Source: Ruminiclostridium herbifermentans (lineage in GTDB: Bacteria; Bacillota; Clostridia; Acetivibrionales; DSM-1351). From it: a DNA stretch of 64,000 nt. This document shows, piece after piece, positions 28,130 through 40,836 of the stretch. How positions within the stretch are numbered: the stretch's first letter is position 1; every line of letters starts with the position of its first letter. Below the pieces are notes generated by a model. That model saw only the letters and a list, made by a program, of their open reading frames with translations. It did not search any database and was not told the DNA's origin. The position numbers were made by a program, and so were the translations under genes. The stretch lies in the NCBI RefSeq assembly GCF_005473905.2, contig NZ_CP061336.1, positions 2,410,501 to 2,474,500 on the forward strand, written 5' to 3'.

Positions 28130-29410
28130 ATGAGAAGTCATTTTAGGCGTCATCGAGGTAAAAAAAGCGAAAATTCAAAAACTGATAAATTAAATTCAGA
28201 AGTAGTTAATCAAAAAAATGCTAATTGTAAAGAAGACTTCTGCAGTTGCTTTAATTGTCATAAATGTTCAAAATATAAAAATAAATGTATGCATGGTAAA
28301 TGTAATAGCTGTACCAGTTGTTTCTGCTATAGTTTCCCGCCTTGTCTATTAAATCCTATTAGTCAAACTGACTTAAATGGTCAAGGTATTATGCTAACCC
28401 CAACTTTAAACACAGGTCCTAACATAATAACAGGTCCTAATAATCAAATAAGTCCAACGCTAGATACAGGAAATAGCATTTTAACAGGCCCAGTTCTTGA
28501 TACTGGTTCTGCTCTTATAACCGGCCCTAATGTAGATGCAGGTCCTGTTCTTGATACTGGTACTGCTATTATAACCGGTCCTAATGTAGATGCAGGTCCT
28601 GTTCTTGATACTGGTACTGGTATTATAACTGGTCCTAATGTAGATGCAGGTCCTGTTCTTGATACTGGTACTGGTATTATAACTGGTCCTAATGTAGATG
28701 CAGGTCCTGTTCTTGATACTGGTACTGCTATTATAACTGGTCCTAATGTAGATGCAGGTCCTGTTCTTGATACTGGTACTAATATCAATGCTGCTCCATC
28801 TGTTGACACTGGTACTACATTGGATACAGGCACTACTGTCAATGCTGCTCCATCTGTTGACACTGGTACTACTTTGGATACAGGCACTACTGTCAATGCT
28901 GCTCCTTCTGTTGACACTGGTACTACTTTGGATACAGGCACTACCGTCATTACTGCTCCTTCTGTTAGCACTGGTAGTACAGTGGATACGGGCACTACCG
29001 TTATTACTGCTCCTTCTGTTAACACTGGTAGTACAGTGGATACAGGCACTACTGTCAATGCTGCTCCTTCTGTTAACACTGGTAGTACAGTGGATACAGG
29101 CACTACTGTCAATGCTGCTCCTTCTGTTAACACTGGTAGTACAGTGGATACAGGCACTACTGTCAATGCTGCTCCATCTGTTGACACTGGTACTACTTTG
29201 GATACAGGCACTACCGTCATTACTGCTCCTTCTGTTGACACTGGGGCTACGGTGGAATCCGGCAATACTGTGATTAATGAGCCTTCTGTTGACACTGGCG
29301 ATGCTTTGGATGCAGATACTAATGCCATTTCTGCTCCTGTAACTGACACTGAAGTGGAATCAGGTACTACAACATCTGCATTTGATGCTGAAACTAATTA
29401 TTCAGAATAA
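28130..29410 (+). CDS. Cys-rich protein with sixteen 18-residue tandem repeats
   Basis: 426 residues; no family was recognised. There is no signal peptide. N-terminus: basic (RSHFRRHRGKK), then a cysteine-rich segment (residues 37-75; CSCFNCHKC, CNSCTSCFCY). From about residue 115, two related 18-residue units follow: six of the AGPVLDTGTAIITGPNVD type, then ten of the AAPSVDTGTTLDTGTTVN type, each 54 bases, several nearly identical in DNA. The tail is acidic. The composition (Cys-rich head, Thr/Gly/Asp/Pro repeats, no export signal) would fit a spore-coat or exosporium component; this is inference. Start: ATG nine bases after GGAGG. Confidence 0.85.
   Translation: MRSHFRRHRGKKSENSKTDKLNSEVVNQKNANCKEDFCSCFNCHKCSKYKNKCMHGKCNSCTSCFCYSFPPCLLNPISQTDLNGQGIMLTPTLNTGPNIITGPNNQISPTLDTGNSILTGPVLDTGSALITGPNVDAGPVLDTGTAIITGPNVDAGPVLDTGTGIITGPNVDAGPVLDTGTGIITGPNVDAGPVLDTGTAIITGPNVDAGPVLDTGTNINAAPSVDTGTTLDTGTTVNAAPSVDTGTTLDTGTTVNAAPSVDTGTTLDTGTTVITAPSVSTGSTVDTGTTVITAPSVNTGSTVDTGTTVNAAPSVNTGSTVDTGTTVNAAPSVNTGSTVDTGTTVNAAPSVDTGTTLDTGTTVITAPSVDTGATVESGNTVINEPSVDTGDALDADTNAISAPVTDTEVESGTTTSAFDAETNYSE
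28480..29330 (+). repeat. Intragenic 54-bp tandem repeats
   Basis: About sixteen units of 54 bases inside the Cys-rich repeat protein gene. The first six share TGATACTGGTACTG and GGTCCTAATGTAGATGCAGG; the later ten share GATACAGGCACTAC and GCTCCTTCTGTT. Near-identity of neighbouring units suggests recent slippage or unequal recombination. Confidence 0.92.
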
Positions 29411-32321: not shown

Positions 32322-32549
32322 TCAATTGTTATTTTTTTCTTTTTCAGAAAGCTTATCTCTAAGTCTATCAATCTGTTCCTTAGTAATATTTGATGTCATA
32401 AAATCTTTTATTGAAACACTTCTGTAATCGTCAATTTCATCAATACATTGACCGCAATTATCACAATGCTTTTCAGAGTCTAAATCACAAATATCACATT
32501 CACCACAATTAATACATTCTCTATTATATAATTCACATAGATTATTCAT
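32322..32549 (-). CDS. Small cysteine-rich protein
   Basis: 75 residues; no family recognised. Eight cysteines in the first 36 residues, arranged CINCGECDIC and CDNCGQC, suggest bound zinc or a cluster; the C-terminal half is a charged helix (KEQIDRLRDKLSEKEK). The GGGAGG ribosome site lies inside a family C repeat (32553-32577), so its expression may be controlled by the structure described there. It is upstream of the cysteine desulfurase in the same direction (153-base gap) and may belong to that sulfur-transfer unit. Confidence 0.8.
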   Translation of the reverse strand: MNNLCELYNRECINCGECDICDLDSEKHCDNCGQCIDEIDDYRSVSIKDFMTSNITKEQIDRLRDKLSEKEKNNN

Positions 32550-32816: not shown

Positions 32817-33617
32817 TTAAAGCCTACCTATTGCTTTTAATATACCATATATTAATGCTTGAGGCCTAGGGGGACATCCTGGTATATATACATCTACAGG
32901 CAATACACAATCTACGCCATTTCTGCCTGCATAGCTGTTTTTAAATATACCGCCACTGCAAGCACATGCACCTACAGCAATAACTAGTTTTGGTGAAGGT
33001 GTTGCATTATATGTCTTTATGAGTGCTTCCTCCATATTTCTGGTTACGCAGCCAGTTACCATTAACATATCAGCATGCCTAGGTGAAGCCACAAATTGAA
33101 TTCCTAAACGTTCTAAATCATTATAGGGAGATCCTAAAGCATTTAGTTCATAATCGCAGCCATTACAAGAACCAGCATCTACTTCTCTGATATTTAGGCT
33201 CTTACCATAAAACTTTTTTACTTTCTCCTTTAATTGCCTGCCTAATAACTCATAATCTAAATCCTTAACAACATCGTCTTGAACTAATAATGGTGTTGCT
33301 CTTAAAGCTGCTCTGCTTTTCTGTGCCAGTTCAAACTTGTTTGAAAGTAATACTGCTTTATTTGGACACGCATCTTCACAAAATCTGCAGAAAATGCATT
33401 CGTCAATATTTACAGCAGGCGATTTTTCTTTCTGCTTGTCATTATCAACTAAAGCAATTGCTCCAGTTGGACATGAATTAATGCACTTTGAGCACCTTTT
33501 GCATTTAGTATAATAAAATTCTGGTACACCAGTAATATATGAACTCTTTATTGGCTTTTTAGGGTAATCAACAGTAACAGTACCATGTTGAAACATCTTT
33601 TTAATTATATTATGCAT
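32817..33617 (-). CDS. Ferredoxin-fused NuoB/HyfI-like subunit of a complex I-like enzyme
   Basis: Electron-carrying subunit at the membrane face. Residues 1-100 hold two 4Fe-4S motifs (CKRCSKCINSCP, CIFCRFCEDACP), equivalent to HyfH/NuoI. From about residue 145 the 20-kDa subunit domain has the N2-type cysteines CNGC, TGCV, GACACSGG and IPGCPPRPQ. 266 residues, so two subunits that are usually separate are fused here. The start is ATG after GGAGG. It is the last gene of the six-gene operon. Confidence 0.92.
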   Translation of the reverse strand: MHNIIKKMFQHGTVTVDYPKKPIKSSYITGVPEFYYTKCKRCSKCINSCPTGAIALVDNDKQKEKSPAVNIDECIFCRFCEDACPNKAVLLSNKFELAQKSRAALRATPLLVQDDVVKDLDYELLGRQLKEKVKKFYGKSLNIREVDAGSCNGCDYELNALGSPYNDLERLGIQFVASPRHADMLMVTGCVTRNMEEALIKTYNATPSPKLVIAVGACACSGGIFKNSYAGRNGVDCVLPVDVYIPGCPPRPQALIYGILKAIGRL

Positions 33618-33693
33618 TTAATCTACCTCCAAAAGCAATAATACCAACTTCTGCATATAAATTGGTAAACTCAATTAATAACCTCACACTAAA

Positions 33694-35286
33694 TTACAAA
33701 TCATTTCCAGCATATGAAAGATTGAAACTCTTATTTATTAGTGGAAAATCAGTTAATGTATTAGTGTTAACTGCATGGCATAGTACAGGCCAATTGCAAA
33801 ATGACGGTGTCCTTACTTTATATCTTAAAATAGTATTATTTTCACCTGTCATAACAAAATGAATGTTTTCTCCTCTGGGTGACTCAGTCATACCAAAGGC
33901 ATAAGAATAAGGCTTAAGATTTCCTATGTCAATAGAAATAGAACCTTCCTCTGGCATTTTATCAAGAGCTTGTCTAATAATACTTATAGACTCAATAATT
34001 TCCTCAATTTTAACATTCATCCTGCAATTAATGTCGCAATTATTATGTTGAGGTACATTAAATTTAAGCTTTGAATATGCAGCATACGGGAATTCTTTTC
34101 TAACATCAGTATTAATACCGCTAGCTCTGCCACCAGGCCCAACAGCATTTAAATCAACAGCAATAGCATTAGATAAAATTCCAGTGTGTTCAACTCTATC
34201 AATAAACATACCATTATTTTTAACAATATTTACTGTTTCTCTAAACTCTTTATCTAAATTATTTAAGCAATCAATAATTAATTTTTCATTATTTCTTATA
34301 AAATCTTTTCTTAAACCTCCTGGTTTATTTGTATTTCTTAAGAATCTACTTCCAGTCAGCTGTTCGCATAAAACCTGTATCCAACGTCTCATCATAGCAA
34401 ATTGTCCATTTGCAAAAATATAGCCTGTATCAACACATAGACCTGAAATATCTCCAAGATGACTGCAAATGCGCTCAAACTCTGCAAATATAGTTCTAGA
34501 GTAAAGTGCTCTTTCAGGAAGATAGGTTATTCCATTAATTTTTTCAATTGCCTGACAATAAGCTAAAGAATTTGTAAAAGTCTCATCGCCCGAAATTCTT
34601 TCAGAAAACAAAAGTACTTTCATATAATTTTCATTCTCTGACAACTTTTCTAGTCCACGGTGAGTGTAATATAGCTTTGCCTCAAGATTAATTATTGGCT
34701 CTCCTGCCACACTAAACCTAAAATGTCCAGGCTCAATTATTCCTGCATGAACAGGTCCTACGGCAACTTCAAATACTCCTGTACCAGAAATACTGGTATA
34801 ACTTTGCTCCCTCTTTTCAAAATTCAATCTAGTATTTGCTTTAAAATCCTTATTTAACGGATGAACATTCAGCGGAAAATTTCCATGATGCACTAATTCT
34901 CTGCTATCTAATGAATTAACAAATGAAACTCCAAACATGTCTTGTATCTCTCTTTCATACAAGCTTGCAGCAGGAATTTCCTTTGCAATTGAGTCAATAT
35001 GCAGTGAGCTTTTTTTGTCAAGCTTAACGTATAAGGTAATTAGTGTATTAGATGACCTAACTGCAAAGGTATAATAAATAGTTATGCTATTATTAATTTG
35101 AGAGGTGTCATTACCAAATAAATCAATAAGCACACAGTCAATATTATTATAAATACTAATGCAGTCATCTTTAATAGATGCTTGTGTAACCTCTGAATAT
35201 ATCTCATTTTCATTAAGCAATTTGCTTTCAATTGCATGTGATGATAATAATCTATTTATTGCTTCAAAAATAGCTTCGGAAACCAC
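33694..35286 (-). CDS. HyfG/HycE-like large subunit lacking all NiFe cysteines
   Basis: Fused 30-kDa (about 1-160; AASLYEREIQDMFGVSF) and 49-kDa/hydrogenase-large-subunit domains, 530 residues. Where group 4 hydrogenases have RxCGxC, this protein has ERISGDE (about 228), and at the C-terminal DPCxxC position it reads SFNLSY in a complex I-like tail. It therefore cannot hold a NiFe centre of the known kind. This places it with the energy-converting hydrogenase-related (Ehr) complexes, whose reaction is not settled. The start is GTG after GGAGGG, touching the stop of the upstream gene. Confidence 0.92.
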   Translation of the reverse strand: MVSEAIFEAINRLLSSHAIESKLLNENEIYSEVTQASIKDDCISIYNNIDCVLIDLFGNDTSQINNSITIYYTFAVRSSNTLITLYVKLDKKSSLHIDSIAKEIPAASLYEREIQDMFGVSFVNSLDSRELVHHGNFPLNVHPLNKDFKANTRLNFEKREQSYTSISGTGVFEVAVGPVHAGIIEPGHFRFSVAGEPIINLEAKLYYTHRGLEKLSENENYMKVLLFSERISGDETFTNSLAYCQAIEKINGITYLPERALYSRTIFAEFERICSHLGDISGLCVDTGYIFANGQFAMMRRWIQVLCEQLTGSRFLRNTNKPGGLRKDFIRNNEKLIIDCLNNLDKEFRETVNIVKNNGMFIDRVEHTGILSNAIAVDLNAVGPGGRASGINTDVRKEFPYAAYSKLKFNVPQHNNCDINCRMNVKIEEIIESISIIRQALDKMPEEGSISIDIGNLKPYSYAFGMTESPRGENIHFVMTGENNTILRYKVRTPSFCNWPVLCHAVNTNTLTDFPLINKSFNLSYAGNDL

Positions 35287-36771
35287 TTATATCCCTCCTA
35301 AAACAATTTCAGTACAGGCATCCATTAATGACTTCAATGGGGCAGGTATATATATTCCCACAAAAATTATAATGCATAACAAAACTATAAGAACTGATGA
35401 ACTAATGAAGTCCAACTCACCTTTTTCTATTTCGGAGTTTGGGTTATTGCCATAAAACATTTTACTTATCTGTTTAACAAATCCTGCAAATATAACTGCT
35501 AAAAATAATAAAAGCAGCATAGCAATTATGTATTTTTTTGACTGTATAGCCCCTACCACTGTGCTAAATTCACTCATAAAAATACCAAATGGCGGCATAC
35601 CCGTTATTGCGAAAACACCAAGAACAAAAACTATACCTGTTACTGGCATTGTTTTAATAAGTCCACGTATGCCAGCTATTTTTTTAGTATGATACTTCAA
35701 ATAAACATTTCCAGTTGCCAAGAAAAGCATTGATTTTGTCATAGCATGATTAAAGGTATGATACATTGCTGCGAAAATACTTACTGGCGTACATATACCT
35801 AAACCTAAAGCAATAATTCCCATATGCTCGATACTAGAATATGCTAAGATTCTTTTGTAGTCTTGCTGTACTAAAACAAACATAGCAGCTGTCGCTATGG
35901 ACAATATTCCAAGTAATAAAAGCAGATTTCCTGTATAGTTATTATTTCCAAGGCATGTGTTGACAATAGATAAAACTCTTATGATACCATATATTGCAGT
36001 ATTTAAAAGCACTCCTGATAGTAGTGCACTTACAGGTGATGGTGCTTGACTATGAGCATCTGGGAGCCATGTATGCATAGGAGAAAAACCAACTTTTGTT
36101 CCAAAACCTATTAATATAAATATAAATGCTATTTTTAAAATACTTGGGTCAAGGGATGAAGCATTCTGCAGTAAGAAATTCCAGTTTAGTCCGGAAATCT
36201 TGTTTCCTACTTGCGTTATAGTTGATGAATAATAAAGTAAAATAATACCTAACATTGCAAATGCTATACCCACTGAACAAATTATTAGGTATTTCCACGC
36301 AGCTTCTATGGATCTTTTATTGTTATAAAAACCTACTAAAAAAGCAGATGCAAGGGTGGTTGCCTCAATTGCAATCCACATTACACCCATGTTTTGTGTT
36401 ATTAAGGCTAAAATCATTGCCAAAACAAATGCATTAGAGAGACTATAATAAAGTTTTAGCTTTTTTAATGTAATTACATTTCTTTTTAACTCTTCTCCAA
36501 AATAACTTATGGAAAATAATGAAACTAAAAAAAATGCCAAAGTTGTAATTAATAATATATAACCGCTTAATGAATCAATATAAAATAAATCCTTAAATAT
36601 TCCAGTGCTTGTAACTGCTTTAAACTTATTAATCTCTATTAGTGCTGCTATCGAAGAAATTAAAATTAACAATGCTCCTATTAAATTAGTTAAATGTATT
36701 ACAGTTTTATTTTTTGTTATCCATACTAACCCACCTGCTATTACAGGAATAGCTAAAAATGCAAAAATCAT
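35287..36771 (-). CDS. HyfF/NuoM-like antiporter-type membrane subunit
   Basis: Proton- or sodium-translocating subunit, about 494 residues with about 14 membrane spans. Family marks: MWIAIEATTLASAFLVGFY with the conserved Glu, FGTKVGFSPMHTWLPDAHSQAPSPVSALLSGVLLN-type loop (about 235-265), and YSSIEHMGIIALGLG. The start is placed at the ATG three bases after GGGAGG plus AAAT; a reading four codons longer overlaps that site. Second gene from the 3' end side of the Ehr-like operon. Confidence 0.92.
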   Translation of the reverse strand: MIFAFLAIPVIAGGLVWITKNKTVIHLTNLIGALLILISSIAALIEINKFKAVTSTGIFKDLFYIDSLSGYILLITTLAFFLVSLFSISYFGEELKRNVITLKKLKLYYSLSNAFVLAMILALITQNMGVMWIAIEATTLASAFLVGFYNNKRSIEAAWKYLIICSVGIAFAMLGIILLYYSSTITQVGNKISGLNWNFLLQNASSLDPSILKIAFIFILIGFGTKVGFSPMHTWLPDAHSQAPSPVSALLSGVLLNTAIYGIIRVLSIVNTCLGNNNYTGNLLLLLGILSIATAAMFVLVQQDYKRILAYSSIEHMGIIALGLGICTPVSIFAAMYHTFNHAMTKSMLFLATGNVYLKYHTKKIAGIRGLIKTMPVTGIVFVLGVFAITGMPPFGIFMSEFSTVVGAIQSKKYIIAMLLLLFLAVIFAGFVKQISKMFYGNNPNSEIEKGELDFISSSVLIVLLCIIIFVGIYIPAPLKSLMDACTEIVLGGI

Positions 36772-36791
36772 ATTTCCTCCCATTTTTAAGG

Positions 36792-37463
36792 CTAACCTTT
36801 TAAATTCTTTAGCTTATTAATATCTATTGATTCAAATGTATCATTAATCTTAAACACAAATATACCCATTATCAGAAAAGCTGTAAGTAGGTCAAAAAAC
36901 AGCCCAAATTCAACAAACATTGGCATACCTTCTGTAGTCAACATGGCAGCTAAAAACATACCATTTTCTATAACTAAGAATCCAACAATCTGACCAATTG
37001 CCTTTTTTCTGCTTATCATAAAAAACAATCCTATCATAACAACTGACATTGAATATATCAAATAATTCTTGGTATCTAGATTTGTAATTCCTTCAATACT
37101 ATATATCACATACCAGCTAAGCACGACTAACCCGCCACAAATAAGCATTGAAATAGGAATATTAATGAAAAAGTCTTTTTCAACTGTATATTCTACCTTT
37201 TGTGATGTCCTTTTTAAAACCATTGGAATTAAAATTACTTTAAACAAAACTATTAATAAAAATATTATAAAAACTTCGTCAAACTTCTTATGTACAAGCA
37301 TACCGCGAATTGATACTAAAAGTGATATTGAAGCAAGCAGTAATGATTGAAACCTAAAAGTTGATATATAGGAATTTTGTCTCTTATTTGCAATTAAAAC
37401 AAATGAAGAAATCAATATTAATATTGATAAAAGGTTTAAAGCATTGTTGTACATAATAATCAT
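36792..37463 (-). CDS. HyfE-like membrane subunit
   Basis: 223 residues with about seven hydrophobic segments. Resembles hydrogenase-4 component E (NuoK-related): FLVIENGMFLAAML with a conserved Glu near residue 166, and the closing EFGLFFDLLTAFLIMGIFVFKIND. The start is ATG five bases after AGGA. It fits between HyfC- and HyfF-like genes as in hyf operons. Confidence 0.85.
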   Translation of the reverse strand: MIIMYNNALNLLSILILISSFVLIANKRQNSYISTFRFQSLLLASISLLVSIRGMLVHKKFDEVFIIFLLIVLFKVILIPMVLKRTSQKVEYTVEKDFFINIPISMLICGGLVVLSWYVIYSIEGITNLDTKNYLIYSMSVVMIGLFFMISRKKAIGQIVGFLVIENGMFLAAMLTTEGMPMFVEFGLFFDLLTAFLIMGIFVFKINDTFESIDINKLKNLKG

Positions 37464-37493
37464 CCACGTCCTTTTTATAGATATTACAATACT

Positions 37494-37565
37494 GCAAAAA
37501 ATACTTTTGTCTTAGCGCTTGAAAATGCACTATGTAAGTACAAACTTTATTTTCATTCTGAGCAA
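37494..37565 (+). repeat. Diverged family B copy, B4
   Basis: GCAAAAAATACTTTTGTCTTAG then GCACTATGTAAGTACAAACTT matches the right half of B3; the hairpin arms are eroded (CTTGAAAATGC, TTTTCATTCTG). It lies inside the Ehr-like operon, between the HyfE- and HyfC-like genes. Confidence 0.6.
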
Positions 37566-37608
37566 ATATTATACTTAAACTACTGGTGATAACCTTTTAC
37601 ACTAATTC

Positions 37609-38559
37609 TTATTTTAGAATAAAACTAGTTAAAAAGCCTAAAACAGATACTATAAAAGCTATTGCTGCAAAATTAGGAATACTGTACAATCGAAGTTTCA
37701 CAGTATTTAATTCAACAAGTGCAACTAGTATAGTAATCACAAATATCTTTAACAAGTAGATTCCAAATCCCAAAAATATATTTGCTACATTAAATCCTAC
37801 AGGAATTAGAATATTAGCCATAAATGTCATAAAAACAAGCTGCTTAATATGTGTTCCCAACTCAATAAAAGCAAGGTGCCTTCCCGAATATTCAAGTACC
37901 ATTGCTTCATGTACCATTGTAAGTTCTAAATGAGTAGAAGGATCATCGACTGGAATTCTAGAAGATTCAGCTATTAAAACCATTAACATACTAACAAACA
38001 ATAATAGATTAATTGGCGTAAAAGCTAATTCCGTATGATTTACCATATAATTATATATTGATGAAACATTTGTGGATGCAATATCAGTTCTTGCACTTAC
38101 AGTAATAATTATAATAAATAATGCAGGTTCTGCCAATGCAGAGACCAGCATTTCTCTACTACTGCCCATTCCACCAAATGCACTACCAGTATCTAGGCCT
38201 GCTAATGCCATAAACACACGACCTGCAACAAATAAATATACAATAATTAATAAATCTGTATAGAATGTAAATCCTACAAGCTGATTTACTAATGGCAAGC
38301 AAAGTAAGGCTGTTAATGATGTTACAAAATATATATATGGAGCTACATTGTAAATCCATGATGAAGTATTTGAAACTACTAAATCTTTTTTAAATAGTTT
38401 AATCAAATTATAATATGGCTGAAAAATTGACGGTCCTATCTTATGCTGTGCTTTAGCCTTCAATACTTTAATAACACCAGTAAAAATTGGTGCAATCAAT
38501 AATATTATTATAATTTGAACAATTAATTTTAATATTGAAGTAATCATAAATATGTCCAT
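37609..38559 (-). CDS. HyfC/NuoH-like membrane subunit
   Basis: 316 residues, about eight spans; the complex I subunit that links the hydrophilic arm to the membrane arm. KAQHKIGPSIFQPYYNLIKLFKKD (about 36-58) and RIPVDDPSTHLELTMVHEAMVLEYSGRHLA (about 198-227) are diagnostic. No good ribosome site precedes the start; CATGGACATATTTATGA surrounds it and the identical 17 bases surround the miaA start, where the ribosome site is also poor. Confidence 0.92.
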   Translation of the reverse strand: MDIFMITSILKLIVQIIIILLIAPIFTGVIKVLKAKAQHKIGPSIFQPYYNLIKLFKKDLVVSNTSSWIYNVAPYIYFVTSLTALLCLPLVNQLVGFTFYTDLLIIVYLFVAGRVFMALAGLDTGSAFGGMGSSREMLVSALAEPALFIIIITVSARTDIASTNVSSIYNYMVNHTELAFTPINLLLFVSMLMVLIAESSRIPVDDPSTHLELTMVHEAMVLEYSGRHLAFIELGTHIKQLVFMTFMANILIPVGFNVANIFLGFGIYLLKIFVITILVALVELNTVKLRLYSIPNFAAIAFIVSVLGFLTSFILK

Positions 38560-38632
38560 GTCTCACATTTTATTAAACAACATAGTACATTACATGGACT
38601 GGGCACCTCCTATATAGATATTTGCATTTATT

Positions 38633-38673
38633 GCATCCTTTTATATTAAGAATAAGTTTAAGTAAAAGGATGC
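38633..38673 (-). other. Stem-loop between the HyfB- and HyfC-like genes
   Basis: GCATCCTTTTA / TAAAAGGATGC, an 11-bp perfect stem, 17 bases after the HyfB-like stop and without a following T-run. It could be a processing or partial attenuation site that sets subunit ratios. Confidence 0.55.
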
Positions 38674-38689
38674 AGACAATAAACTTTAA

Positions 38690-40756
38690 TTACGCCATAA
38701 ATGAATAGTAAAGTAACATTAATACTAAAATACTGAAGAAATAAAGCAAATAAGTATGTATGCTACCAGTTTGTATTTTAAATCTATAATTCCTGGAAAA
38801 ATTAATTATGAACTTTATAATTGGAACATAGAAATATTTCTCAAATACCTTTTCAGTTGACATGGTGTATATTCCTTTCTTTATGTAATAAGGGCCATGT
38901 CCTTCTGTAATAACTAAATCCCTATTGGGTTTAAATATTCCTCTTAGGATAATTCTGATCGATTTTGAAAAGCCTGTTGCTGAATACTGCATTTTAGGAG
39001 TAATTTTTGTAAATCCACAATCCCATGTATTATAGCGTTCCACAGAAGTTCTTTTTCGTAATGAATACACTATTAGTATAACAATGCTAGACAATACAAA
39101 TATTAAAATTGATAATAACCCAACAGATATATCTAGCTTATTCTCACCTATAGGATAATGTACAAACTTCGTCAATGACCAATCAGTAGATAATAGCTTT
39201 AAATTTAAAAACTCATAACTTATATTATCTATTATGCTGATTGTATACTTTGAAAAAATACCCAAAGCCAAACAAAGACAAGATGAAATACCAAGAGCCA
39301 CTAACATTGGCTTTTCTGGTTCTTTCACATTCTCAGCATTACTAGTTCTAGGCATACCTAAAAAAGAAATACCAAACATCTTTACAAAACAAAAAGCAAC
39401 TAAAGCACCTGTCAAAGATAAAGCAGCTGCTACAATCATAAACAAAATAATTATAGATGAATTATTAGCAAACCAAACGATACTATTTATAATAGTTTGG
39501 AAAATAATAAATTCACTTATAAAGCCATTAAAAGGAGGTACAGCAGAAATAGTCAAACATCCTATAAATATAAAGATTGATGCAATTGGCATCTTCTTTA
39601 TTAATCCGCCTAACTTCTCCATATCTTTGGTATGAGCACTATATTGTATCGCTCCAGCACCCATAAATAATAAAGATTTAAAAACTGCATGATTTAAAGT
39701 ATGTAAAAGTGTAGCTGTCAATGCCATTACAAGTAAAAAGGAATTATCAGCAGCTCTAGAAATAAGAAACATACCAATTCCACAGAATATTAGCCCCATA
39801 TTTTCAATACTCGAATAAGCCAGTAACCTTTTAATATTTATAGTAGATGCAACTGAATATGCAATTCCAAATATTGCTGAAGCAGAGCCAACTATTAACG
39901 TTATAACTCCCCACCACATTGGATTATCTGGTAATAAGTCCAAAATGACTCTTAGCAAACCATATACAGACATTTTTATCATTACACCTGACATTAATGC
40001 CGATATGTTACTAGGCGCAACAGGGTGAGCATATGGCAGCCAAATATGCATTGGTATTATTCCTGCTTTAGTTCCAAAACCTATAAGTAAAAATATAAAT
40101 ATTAAATTTGCATAGTTACTTGGAATTGAGGTATTGGCAATATTAGAAAAATCAAAGCTAAAACTTTTTGTAAAATATGCCATTAAACCAAAAGCTGCAG
40201 TTATAAAGGCTGTTCCTGCATATGTCATTATAATATATATTCTGCTAGCCCTTTGGACTTCTTTTTTTTCACTTTCATAATTAACCAAAAAGTATGAAAC
40301 CAAGGACATAATTTCCCAAAATACTAAAAATAAAAGCAAGTTACTGCTTGATACTAAAAGAATCATGGAAATAATAAAGAGATTATATAAAAGTCCAAAT
40401 ATAGAAATATTTCTTTTAAAAAAGTAATGAGACATATATGTATATGAAAACAAAGAAACTATAAATGAAATAATTGCGATGACTAAAATAAAAAAAGCAG
40501 CTAAATTATCAATTTTAAAGCTAATTGTAAGAAACGGGATATTATTTGAATATTTAAATTCTAAAGGTGTGTCCTTCAAAATTAATAATTTATAAGTCAT
40601 TAATATGCTTAAAAATCCACTAGCAATCATTGCACATGTATTAGATAATCTATTAGATAATTTGGGTATCGAGAACGTAAATAAAGAAGAGAGTCCACCA
40701 ATTAAATATATTAACACGCATATGATAAAAAAAATAATTATATTATTTGCTGTCAT
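38690..40756 (-). CDS. HyfB/NuoL-like antiporter-type membrane subunit
   Basis: Largest membrane subunit, 688 residues with about 16 spans. SNLLLFLVFWEIMSLVSYFLV, GFGTKAGIIPMHIWLPYAHP and LLAYSSIENMGLIFCGIG are antiporter-family motifs; the C-terminal extension (VERYNTWDCGFTKITPKMQY and following) is typical of HyfB. First gene of the operon, behind a good promoter at 40808-40836; the start is ATG nine bases after GGAGG. Confidence 0.93.
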   Translation of the reverse strand: MTANNIIIFFIICVLIYLIGGLSSLFTFSIPKLSNRLSNTCAMIASGFLSILMTYKLLILKDTPLEFKYSNNIPFLTISFKIDNLAAFFILVIAIISFIVSLFSYTYMSHYFFKRNISIFGLLYNLFIISMILLVSSSNLLLFLVFWEIMSLVSYFLVNYESEKKEVQRASRIYIIMTYAGTAFITAAFGLMAYFTKSFSFDFSNIANTSIPSNYANLIFIFLLIGFGTKAGIIPMHIWLPYAHPVAPSNISALMSGVMIKMSVYGLLRVILDLLPDNPMWWGVITLIVGSASAIFGIAYSVASTINIKRLLAYSSIENMGLIFCGIGMFLISRAADNSFLLVMALTATLLHTLNHAVFKSLLFMGAGAIQYSAHTKDMEKLGGLIKKMPIASIFIFIGCLTISAVPPFNGFISEFIIFQTIINSIVWFANNSSIIILFMIVAAALSLTGALVAFCFVKMFGISFLGMPRTSNAENVKEPEKPMLVALGISSCLCLALGIFSKYTISIIDNISYEFLNLKLLSTDWSLTKFVHYPIGENKLDISVGLLSILIFVLSSIVILIVYSLRKRTSVERYNTWDCGFTKITPKMQYSATGFSKSIRIILRGIFKPNRDLVITEGHGPYYIKKGIYTMSTEKVFEKYFYVPIIKFIINFSRNYRFKIQTGSIHTYLLYFFSILVLMLLYYSFMA

Positions 40757-40807: not shown

Positions 40808-40836
40808 ATAATACTACCCCATTCTGTAAATGTCAA
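40808..40836 (-). promoter_or_regulatory. Promoter of the Ehr-like operon
   Basis: Minus-strand TTGACA (40831-40836), 17-base spacer, TATTAT (40808-40813), about 50 bases before the HyfB-like start. Confidence 0.8.

Follow-up and report, generated by a model that had tools for sequence, protein, structure and literature searches.

A 64,000-nucleotide stretch of the Ruminiclostridium herbifermentans genome (assembly GCF_005473905.2, contig NZ_CP061336.1, positions 2,410,501 to 2,474,500 of the forward strand; hereafter the window) carries a six-gene operon on the minus strand, 32817-40756, which is, judged from its sequence, an energy-converting-hydrogenase-related (Ehr) complex of the formate-hydrogenlyase branch. 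The large subunit has no cysteine at any of the four positions that hold the nickel–iron (NiFe) ligands, and the complex cannot be an ordinary NiFe hydrogenase. The Ehr complex itself is a published kind, to which the window operon is an added member; the candidate new result is that whole branches of the family have lost their iron-sulfur clusters as well, while keeping the remodelled large-subunit pocket.

The genome is a single contig of 4.82 Mb. In transcription order, the operon encodes hyfB, hyfC/nuoH, hyfE, hyfF, the large subunit and the small subunit, with concordant Pfam and NCBIfam assignments for each gene:

38690..40756, minus strand: hyfB-like large antiporter subunit (688 aa; Proton_antipo_M, E 9.9e-53)
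37609..38559, minus strand: hyfC/NuoH-like membrane anchor (316 aa; NADHdh, PF00146, E 4.5e-37)
36792..37463, minus strand: hyfE/NuoK-like subunit (223 aa; NCBIfam hydrogenase 4 membrane subunit model, E 6.7e-30, under the cut-off)
35287..36783, minus strand: hyfF-like antiporter subunit (498 aa; PF00361)
33694..35286, minus strand: large subunit, fused 30-kDa and 49-kDa domains (530 aa, GTG start; PF00329 and PF00346)
32817..33617, minus strand: small subunit, N-terminal 2x[4Fe-4S] ferredoxin domain fused to the 20-kDa subunit (266 aa; PF01058, E 8.2e-34, and Fer4)

An earlier reading of the window, made from the sequence only, had given the same hyfB-C-E-F-G-I order, and its open reading frames (ORFs) and families agree exactly with those found here. 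The membrane arm comprises two antiporter-like PF00361 proteins plus the NuoH- and HyfE-like subunits. The hyfB-like and hyfF-like proteins score below the cut-offs of the NCBIfam hydrogenase 4 subunit B and F models (630.6 bits against 667, and 495.8 against 610), and the NuoH-like anchor conserves the acidic residues E144, E198, E212, E223 and E283.

The NiFe pocket of the large subunit is remodelled

The closest solved chain to the large subunit is E. coli HycE (7z0s_E; alignment E 2.5e-74). In the gapless pairing of the two proteins, RVCGICG lies opposite RISGDET and DPCYSC opposite NLSYAG, so that the four ligand positions are occupied by S232, E235, S524 and G527:

34582..34602, minus strand: residues 229-235, ERISGDE, the former RxCGxC, with S232 and E235 in place of cysteine (alignment)
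33700..33735, minus strand: residues 518-529, NKSFNLSYAGND, the former DPCxxC, with S524 and G527 in place of cysteine (alignment)

The sequence-only reading had claimed that all four cysteines are replaced, which the HycE alignment bears out; it had also equated DPCxxC with SFNLSY, which is two residues out of register. An AlphaFold2 (AF2) model of the subunit has a mean predicted local distance difference test (pLDDT) score of 92.8, with residues 181-184 below 50, and matches 7z0s_E with Z 49.5 and a root-mean-square deviation (rmsd) of 2.0 over 523 residues.

The family was sampled by scanning named genomes with the peptide patterns GPVHAGII and EPGHFRFS, which gave at least 581 relatives. 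The best 80 were kept; with one removed (L035, a repeat of a contig already included) and the window added, the large-subunit set again numbers 80. The patterns partly build in conservation of residues 177-192; the scan made no use of the small subunit or of positions 232-235 and 522-529. At the four NiFe positions, 68 members lack cysteine altogether, 11 carry the full set of four and L103 carries one. Among the 68 Cys-less members the window's residues recur at S232 in 67, G233 in 68, D234 in 60, N522 in 57, S524 in 68, Y525 in 68, G527 in 67 and D529 in 68, giving the common motifs S-G-D and N-L-S-Y-x-G-x-D. The polar pocket formed by these eight residues also retains H180, E185, R471 and D513. 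In all 68 Cys-less and 11 Cys-bearing members the large subunit stops where that of the window does. Two Mbh-like rows have a tail beyond this point, but its absence is not diagnostic, as Ech-like rows are tailless too.

A hydrogenase or other metalloenzyme with new pocket ligands is a very improbable reading of these data. The conserved D234, N522, S524, Y525 and D529 might conceivably serve as ligands of a hard metal ion, and a group within the same clade retains all four cysteines. However, an alternative cysteine set in the pocket, which the sequence-only reading had set against its own proposal, is absent by sequence conservation across the 68 Cys-less large subunits; the sole position with cysteine in more than half of them is C244 (61/68), which is also cysteine in 7 of the 11 Cys-bearing members.

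The Cys-bearing members have CGxC (CAxC in one) and ELCYxC as their motifs. Eleven such rows of the Ehr clade, with ELCYxC and not DPCxxC, are L039, L040, L042, L043, L045, L049, L051, L098, L101, L110 and L113; lying close to the Cys-less branch, they are possibly true hydrogenases or holders of another metal site. In a Methanomassiliicoccus bin (L044, 9077-14169), a Cys-bearing hydrogenase-like operon with large-subunit, small-subunit, NuoH, antiporter and iron-sulfur genes lies directly downstream of the Cys-less Ehr operon.

Phylogeny and conservation of the operon

The large-subunit tree was built from 84 sequences with the motif columns excluded; 28 of 110 rows had been dropped as near-duplicates, and HycE and the genome's own Ech-like protein were added. 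The Ehr clade contains 76 rows, with a Shimodaira–Hasegawa-like approximate likelihood-ratio test (SH-aLRT) support of 100, and is sister to HycE. The window falls in a 16-row clade of relatives from its order and named Bacillota. A phylogeny of this kind had been proposed with the sequence-only reading, whose assignment to an Ehr-like complex and not a hydrogenase is upheld by the tree, by the absent NiFe ligands and by the literature, which in its accessible parts describes the same class. A single Cys-less clade is compatible with the data (approximately unbiased (AU) test, p 0.47), and, the backbone of the tree being open, the NiFe cysteines may have been lost once or several times.

Orthologs were found in 21 of 60 related genomes (own included; 58 from the same order and two from the same class), among them all 10 other genomes of the genus, each with an intact large subunit. 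The 20 other orthologs are 52-87% identical and carry the replaced motifs without exception, which rules out chance or sequencing error. Between the window and its closest relative, the ratio of nonsynonymous to synonymous substitution (dN/dS) ranges from 0.042 to 0.103 in the six genes and from 0.047 to 0.097 in thiI, nifS, lexA and miaA, at dS above 1, near saturation. The operon is maintained by purifying selection. Its interpretation as a degenerate relic of a hydrogenase operon finds an echo in a 2026 paper (PMC13194489), which in its accessible part terms the Geobacter Ehr already nonfunctional. We reject it on the selection test, since the dN/dS values lie within the range of the housekeeping neighbours; together with the intact large subunits throughout the genus set and a replaced motif conserved in bacteria and archaea, this makes the chance of a relic negligible.

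The small subunit retains a complete iron-sulfur chain in the window lineage

All 12 iron-sulfur cysteines are present in the window small subunit (C39, C42, C45 and C84; C49, C74, C77 and C80; C151, C154, C218 and C248), in agreement with the sequence-only reading, which had called the iron-sulfur cysteines intact:

33366..33503, minus strand: ferredoxin-domain cysteines C39-C84 of clusters I and II (8/8 cysteines in the window and in 14/14 orthologs examined, of 20)
33156..33167, minus strand: proximal cluster ligands C151xxC154, with C218 at 32964-32966 and C248 at 32874-32876

The proximal cluster has 4/4 cysteines in the window and in the same 14 orthologs examined of the 20 found, and its motif spacing in the window is CxxC with four cysteines. 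This arrangement bears on a sulfane or polysulfide reductase like MBS (6u8y), in which the proximal cluster would be used directly. The two complexes belong to one superfamily, the NiFe site is lost in both of these complex-I-family complexes, and cysteine desulfurase-like and ThiI genes adjoin the window operon. Nevertheless, such a reductase is improbable here. According to the accessible text of PMC7684303, MBS has a shortened motif with three-cysteine coordination of the proximal cluster, keeps two NiFe cysteines and lacks the equivalent of MbhL E21, whereas the window has a four-cysteine CxxC cluster, none of the four NiFe cysteines, and E185 at the E21 position in the alignment. The nifS/thiI neighbours are, moreover, missing beside more distant orthologs.

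Stepwise loss of iron-sulfur clusters in related Ehr complexes

Small subunits were found in 70 of 79 loci (L036-L114), giving 71 rows with the window; the other nine, mostly cut by contig ends, were left uncounted, and the Ech-like and HycG controls, with four proximal cysteines each, were set aside. Clusters I, II and proximal are all present in 15/71 rows, the window included; 13 have cluster II and the proximal cluster, 23 the proximal cluster only, and a further 13, from archaea, CPR (candidate phyla radiation) bacteria and others, have at most one of the four proximal cysteines and no ferredoxin domain. The remaining seven (L044, L064, L089, L100, L101, L107 and L108) are in partial states. 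The losses are nested from the outside inwards, cluster I first, then II, then the proximal cluster: among the 71 rows, loss of II always goes with an incomplete cluster I, and a ferredoxin cluster occurs only together with the proximal one. A CPR small subunit (L179) breaks this order, with D, A, D and N as proximal ligands and yet a retained CxxCxxCxxxC motif. Three operons whose small subunit lacks the domain have a separate ferredoxin gene (L041, L044, L046), but no gene with CxxCxxCxxxC was observed inside the 13 cluster-less operons, some of them truncated at a contig end; L085 has one such ORF outside the operon, on the opposite strand.

The cluster-less rows comprise eight from CPR and other bins (L050, L066, L069, L074, L081, L085, L090 and L093) and five from archaea and one Chloroflexota bin (L080, L083, L094, L096 and L099). 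In them C151 is replaced by D, T or S, C154 by T, A, S or E (cysteine being kept in seven), C218 by D or G and C248 by D or N. They form two small-subunit clades, each with SH-aLRT 99, and the small-subunit tree requires only one change. The large-subunit tree splits the cluster-less members; an enforced single origin, compared over 16 rows of which four have an unseen small subunit, has a log-likelihood lower by 22.8 and is not formally rejected (AU p 0.077).

The same loss was seen in two wider searches. Among 150 genomes of the order to which the Methanoregula bin of L094 belongs, 19 (the bin included) have the small subunit at E below 1e-60; 19/19 of these lack all four proximal cysteines, while 11/11 other NuoB-like rows examined keep the four. 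In 18 of these 19 genomes a large subunit was located alongside, with a C-terminus of the same kind, NKSx[ND]LSYxGxDL. A search of 379 CPR-phylum genomes gave 14 matches: 10 with zero or one proximal cysteine, one such fragment and three with four cysteines. The overlap with the 13 cluster-less rows amounts to three CPR genomes and one archaeal-order row, that of the L094 bin.

The cluster-less proteins retain the features of the complex. PF01058 matches four of the four proteins scanned, and the modelled L083 small subunit (mean pLDDT 90.8) still has the fold of a 20-kDa subunit, its best structural match being 7zm7_K with Z 21.2 and an rmsd of 1.4 across 132 residues. The remodelled large-subunit pocket persists. 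HyfB E148, K230, H237, K309 and K360 and HyfF E140, K230, H237 and K350 are intact in 13/13 cluster-less rows, and NuoH E144, E198, R201, E212, E223 and E283 in 12/12. Across the four membrane subunits there are 55 conserved charged or histidine positions; 37 of these show no change in any cluster-less row, and others vary, e.g. HyfF E405 (6/13) and HyfE E185 (6/12). In an Altiarchaeales bin (L099, 15859-20897), the membrane-arm genes occur a second time, just downstream of the cluster-less Ehr operon. The literature search, over the parts of the papers accessible, found no statement that Ehr complexes may be without iron-sulfur clusters; the founding papers (Marreiros 2013, Coppi 2005) lay outside its coverage and may state so, and priority is not claimed. 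With related Ehr complexes that have also lost their iron-sulfur clusters, it can no longer be taken for granted that there must be an electron acceptor.

What may drive the complex

Because the window type retains its whole iron-sulfur chain, we favour ferredoxin-driven ion translocation, and give about an even chance that the window-type complex is a ferredoxin-driven H+ or Na+ pump with an acceptor still to be named. Reduced ferredoxin would donate electrons to clusters I and II of the fused ferredoxin domain, from which they would pass to the proximal cluster. Their arrival at the former NiFe pocket, or their hand-over there to a small polar acceptor, would move the beta1-beta2 loop (GPVHAGIIEPGHF) and NuoH, and this movement would drive H+ or Na+ through the HyfB/HyfF/HyfE arm. 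The window-type membrane arm has the conserved antiporter lysines and glutamates and the NuoH acidic residues. The genome also holds one Ech-like group-4 large subunit (C1:4511-4512 kb) and no RnfC above the cut-off, so a further ferredoxin-oxidising pump beside Ech would make sense.

Several observations count against this proposal. The pocket and key membrane-arm residues are present in relatives in which no redox centre is recognisable, and electron delivery therefore cannot account for the conservation of the pocket throughout the family. Neither the gene neighbourhood, where no non-Ehr neighbour occurs in more than 8 of 80 loci, nor the literature, as far as accessible, suggests an acceptor or partner. 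The distribution of Rnf is equivocal: among the 60 related genomes, 3 have both Ehr and Rnf, 18 Ehr only, 32 Rnf only and 7 neither (by genus 3, 6, 18 and 5; Fisher p 0.035), with G046, whose RnfC is in two pieces below the cut-off, scored negative, and with partial RnfC-like matches below the cut-off in two genomes of the same genus (G004 and G010). Class-wide, however, the avoidance fails. In 391 genomes we counted 10 clear full-length Ehr-type matches (E at most 1.8e-89; weaker or partial ones such as G337 uncounted), and the three Ehr genomes outside the genus (G163, G379 and G124) are all Rnf-positive. Ehr as a substitute for Rnf, supported in the related genomes and contradicted class-wide, was rejected.

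The main rival, which we hold to be a real but clearly less probable possibility, is a redox-gated or redox-independent ion transporter, either a multi-subunit antiporter or a ligand-driven pump, with no terminal electron acceptor. The iron-sulfur chain of the window type would then be a dead end that senses the redox state of ferredoxin and that other lineages have shed, and the remodelled pocket would bind a ligand or form a proton or conformational relay. In its favour are the 13 of 71 small subunits with at most one proximal cysteine and no ferredoxin domain, the 19/19 archaeal-order small subunits set against the 11/11 other NuoB-like rows, the lack of a CxxCxxCxxxC gene within the 13 operons (some cut), the 37/55 unchanged membrane positions, the retained fold of the cluster-less small-subunit model, the lack of any partner in more than 8 of 80 loci and the nested order of loss. 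On the other side, the window lineage keeps its 12 iron-sulfur cysteines in 15/15 rows, and L179 runs against the loss order. What the cluster-less relatives can tell about the window type is also limited, as these lineages may have changed function or may hold a cofactor without a Cys motif, e.g. flavin. At the same tentative level, Cys-less Ehr complexes in general might be ion-translocating machines and not oxidoreductases short of an acceptor, their hydrogenase-like arm acting as a ligand- or redox-sensing gate, with the window chain as a dead-end ferredoxin sensor and archaeal and CPR relatives running electron-free.

A quinone reductase in the style of complex I is a further rival reading; the large subunit is homologous to the 49-kDa subunit. 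In the alignment, though, the quinone ligands His38 and Tyr87 of Nqo4 (their roles, like that of MbhL E21, as given in the accessible text of PMC7684303) correspond to I184 and G233, which are kept in 20/20 orthologs and 68/68 Cys-less members, the count for I184 being partly built in by the scan pattern. Neither MenD nor MqnC is found above the cut-off in the genome. An argument that the organism has no quinone nevertheless failed, since a UbiA gene lies beside polyprenyl-synthase-like and NADH dehydrogenase-2 (Ndh2)-like genes. This locus (L139, C1:3488000-3504000) resembles one for flavin-based extracellular electron transfer; UbiA was assigned by family search, and ApbE-like, FMN-binding lipoprotein-like, Gx-transporter-like, NusG-II-like, polyprenyl-synthase-like and Ndh2-like genes were named by eye. 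It is possible that quinone is made there from a scavenged precursor. The family is also present in CPR bacteria, which are usually without quinones. On balance, a quinone acceptor seems a poor prospect.

Gene neighbourhood

No non-Ehr gene cluster recurs in more than 8 of the 80 named loci (the best 80 of at least 581), and the one found in eight resembles ABC-transporter ATPases. The six-gene block is what stays together in 14 relatives after synteny breaks. A formate dehydrogenase partner was rejected, none being found in the tested flanks, co-travelling in the 14 relatives or recurring in the 80 loci, many of which are short contigs from which a distant fdh gene would escape detection; we saw no sign that the formate dehydrogenase–Ehr link proposed in PMC6349859 extends to the window lineage. 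ThiI, NifS, LexA and YneA were likewise rejected as partners: they stay syntenic throughout the genus and in a few close lineages but not further out, a pattern that we ascribe to common descent and not to function.

The flanking ORFs tested, between 22912 and 49941, are housekeeping genes, with SHMT, AIR-synthase-like, DUF2225, VanW, ThiI and NifS-like on one side and YneA, LexA, Hfq, MiaA, MutL and MutS on the other; two have no Pfam match. No fdh, NADH-module or hyp gene is among them, in agreement with the sequence-only reading, which had noted no formate dehydrogenase, NADH module or maturation gene adjacent. Minor features are as follows:

40808..40836, minus strand: promoter-like TTGACA-17-TATTAT, about 50 bases ahead of hyfB; a weak candidate, as the region has 64 such sites against a shuffle mean of 63.9
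32325-32549, minus strand: 75-aa ORF between the Ehr operon and the cysteine desulfurase gene, present in 6/15 loci compared, no Pfam match
28130-29410, plus strand: 426-aa ORF without a Pfam match, present in 2/15 loci compared, some stretches possibly ending before it

Relation to known complexes and significance

In the accessible literature, Ehr complexes are described as having a group-4-related large subunit without NiFe ligands, antiporter- or complex-I-like subunits and no established function, though not every paper makes every point, and they are suspected of coupling a redox reaction to charge translocation. Published examples come from Geobacter (GSU0739-45), Nitrospira, ammonia-oxidising archaea, CPR bacteria and Margulis- and Saganbacteria. 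The window operon differs from them in that its 20-kDa subunit carries the two ferredoxin clusters as a fusion and in that a neighbouring formate dehydrogenase is lacking. It shares the HyfB-C-E-F-G-I style of subunits with E. coli formate hydrogenlyase-1 (7z0s/7z0t) and hydrogenase-4 (Hyf), but has its four NiFe cysteines replaced, no HycB/FdhF or maturation genes alongside and no C-terminal extension, which HycE bears. Complex I has 49-kDa and 20-kDa subunits of the same fold (large subunit Z about 46) and likewise no NiFe cysteines, but the window lacks the quinone His/Tyr pair and has no adjacent NADH module. The genome's own Ech-like large subunit, of the same superfamily and 32% identical, keeps CGIC and DPCISC. 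The membrane-bound hydrogenase MBH (6cfw) shares the CxxC-type proximal cluster and the E21 equivalent, E185 (PMC7684303, accessible text), whereas the window has no NiFe ligands and a HyfB/HyfE-type membrane arm; the Mrp antiporter, from the same text, has no membrane-anchored peripheral arm, and the window has NuoH-like and 49/20-kDa subunits.

Genome surveys overstate the capacity for hydrogen production when they score this operon among the ferredoxin-dependent hydrogenases. In Table 6 of PMC3561251 that column includes Ccel_1686-1691, the presumed ortholog of the window operon.

Ehr complexes are spread over bacteria and archaea, including nitrifiers, methanogens, CPR bacteria and Clostridia. 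Members with four NiFe cysteines, Cys-less members with a full iron-sulfur chain such as the window, and members in which no redox centre can be recognised form a stepwise series. It amounts to an experiment made by nature, in which the roles of pocket and ion channel can be viewed apart from electron transfer and the matter of a missing acceptor becomes a testable either/or. If the transporter alternative were true, there would be complexes of the complex I family that need no redox chemistry. The question raised overall is what drives such pumps, given relatives without the metal and without iron-sulfur clusters.

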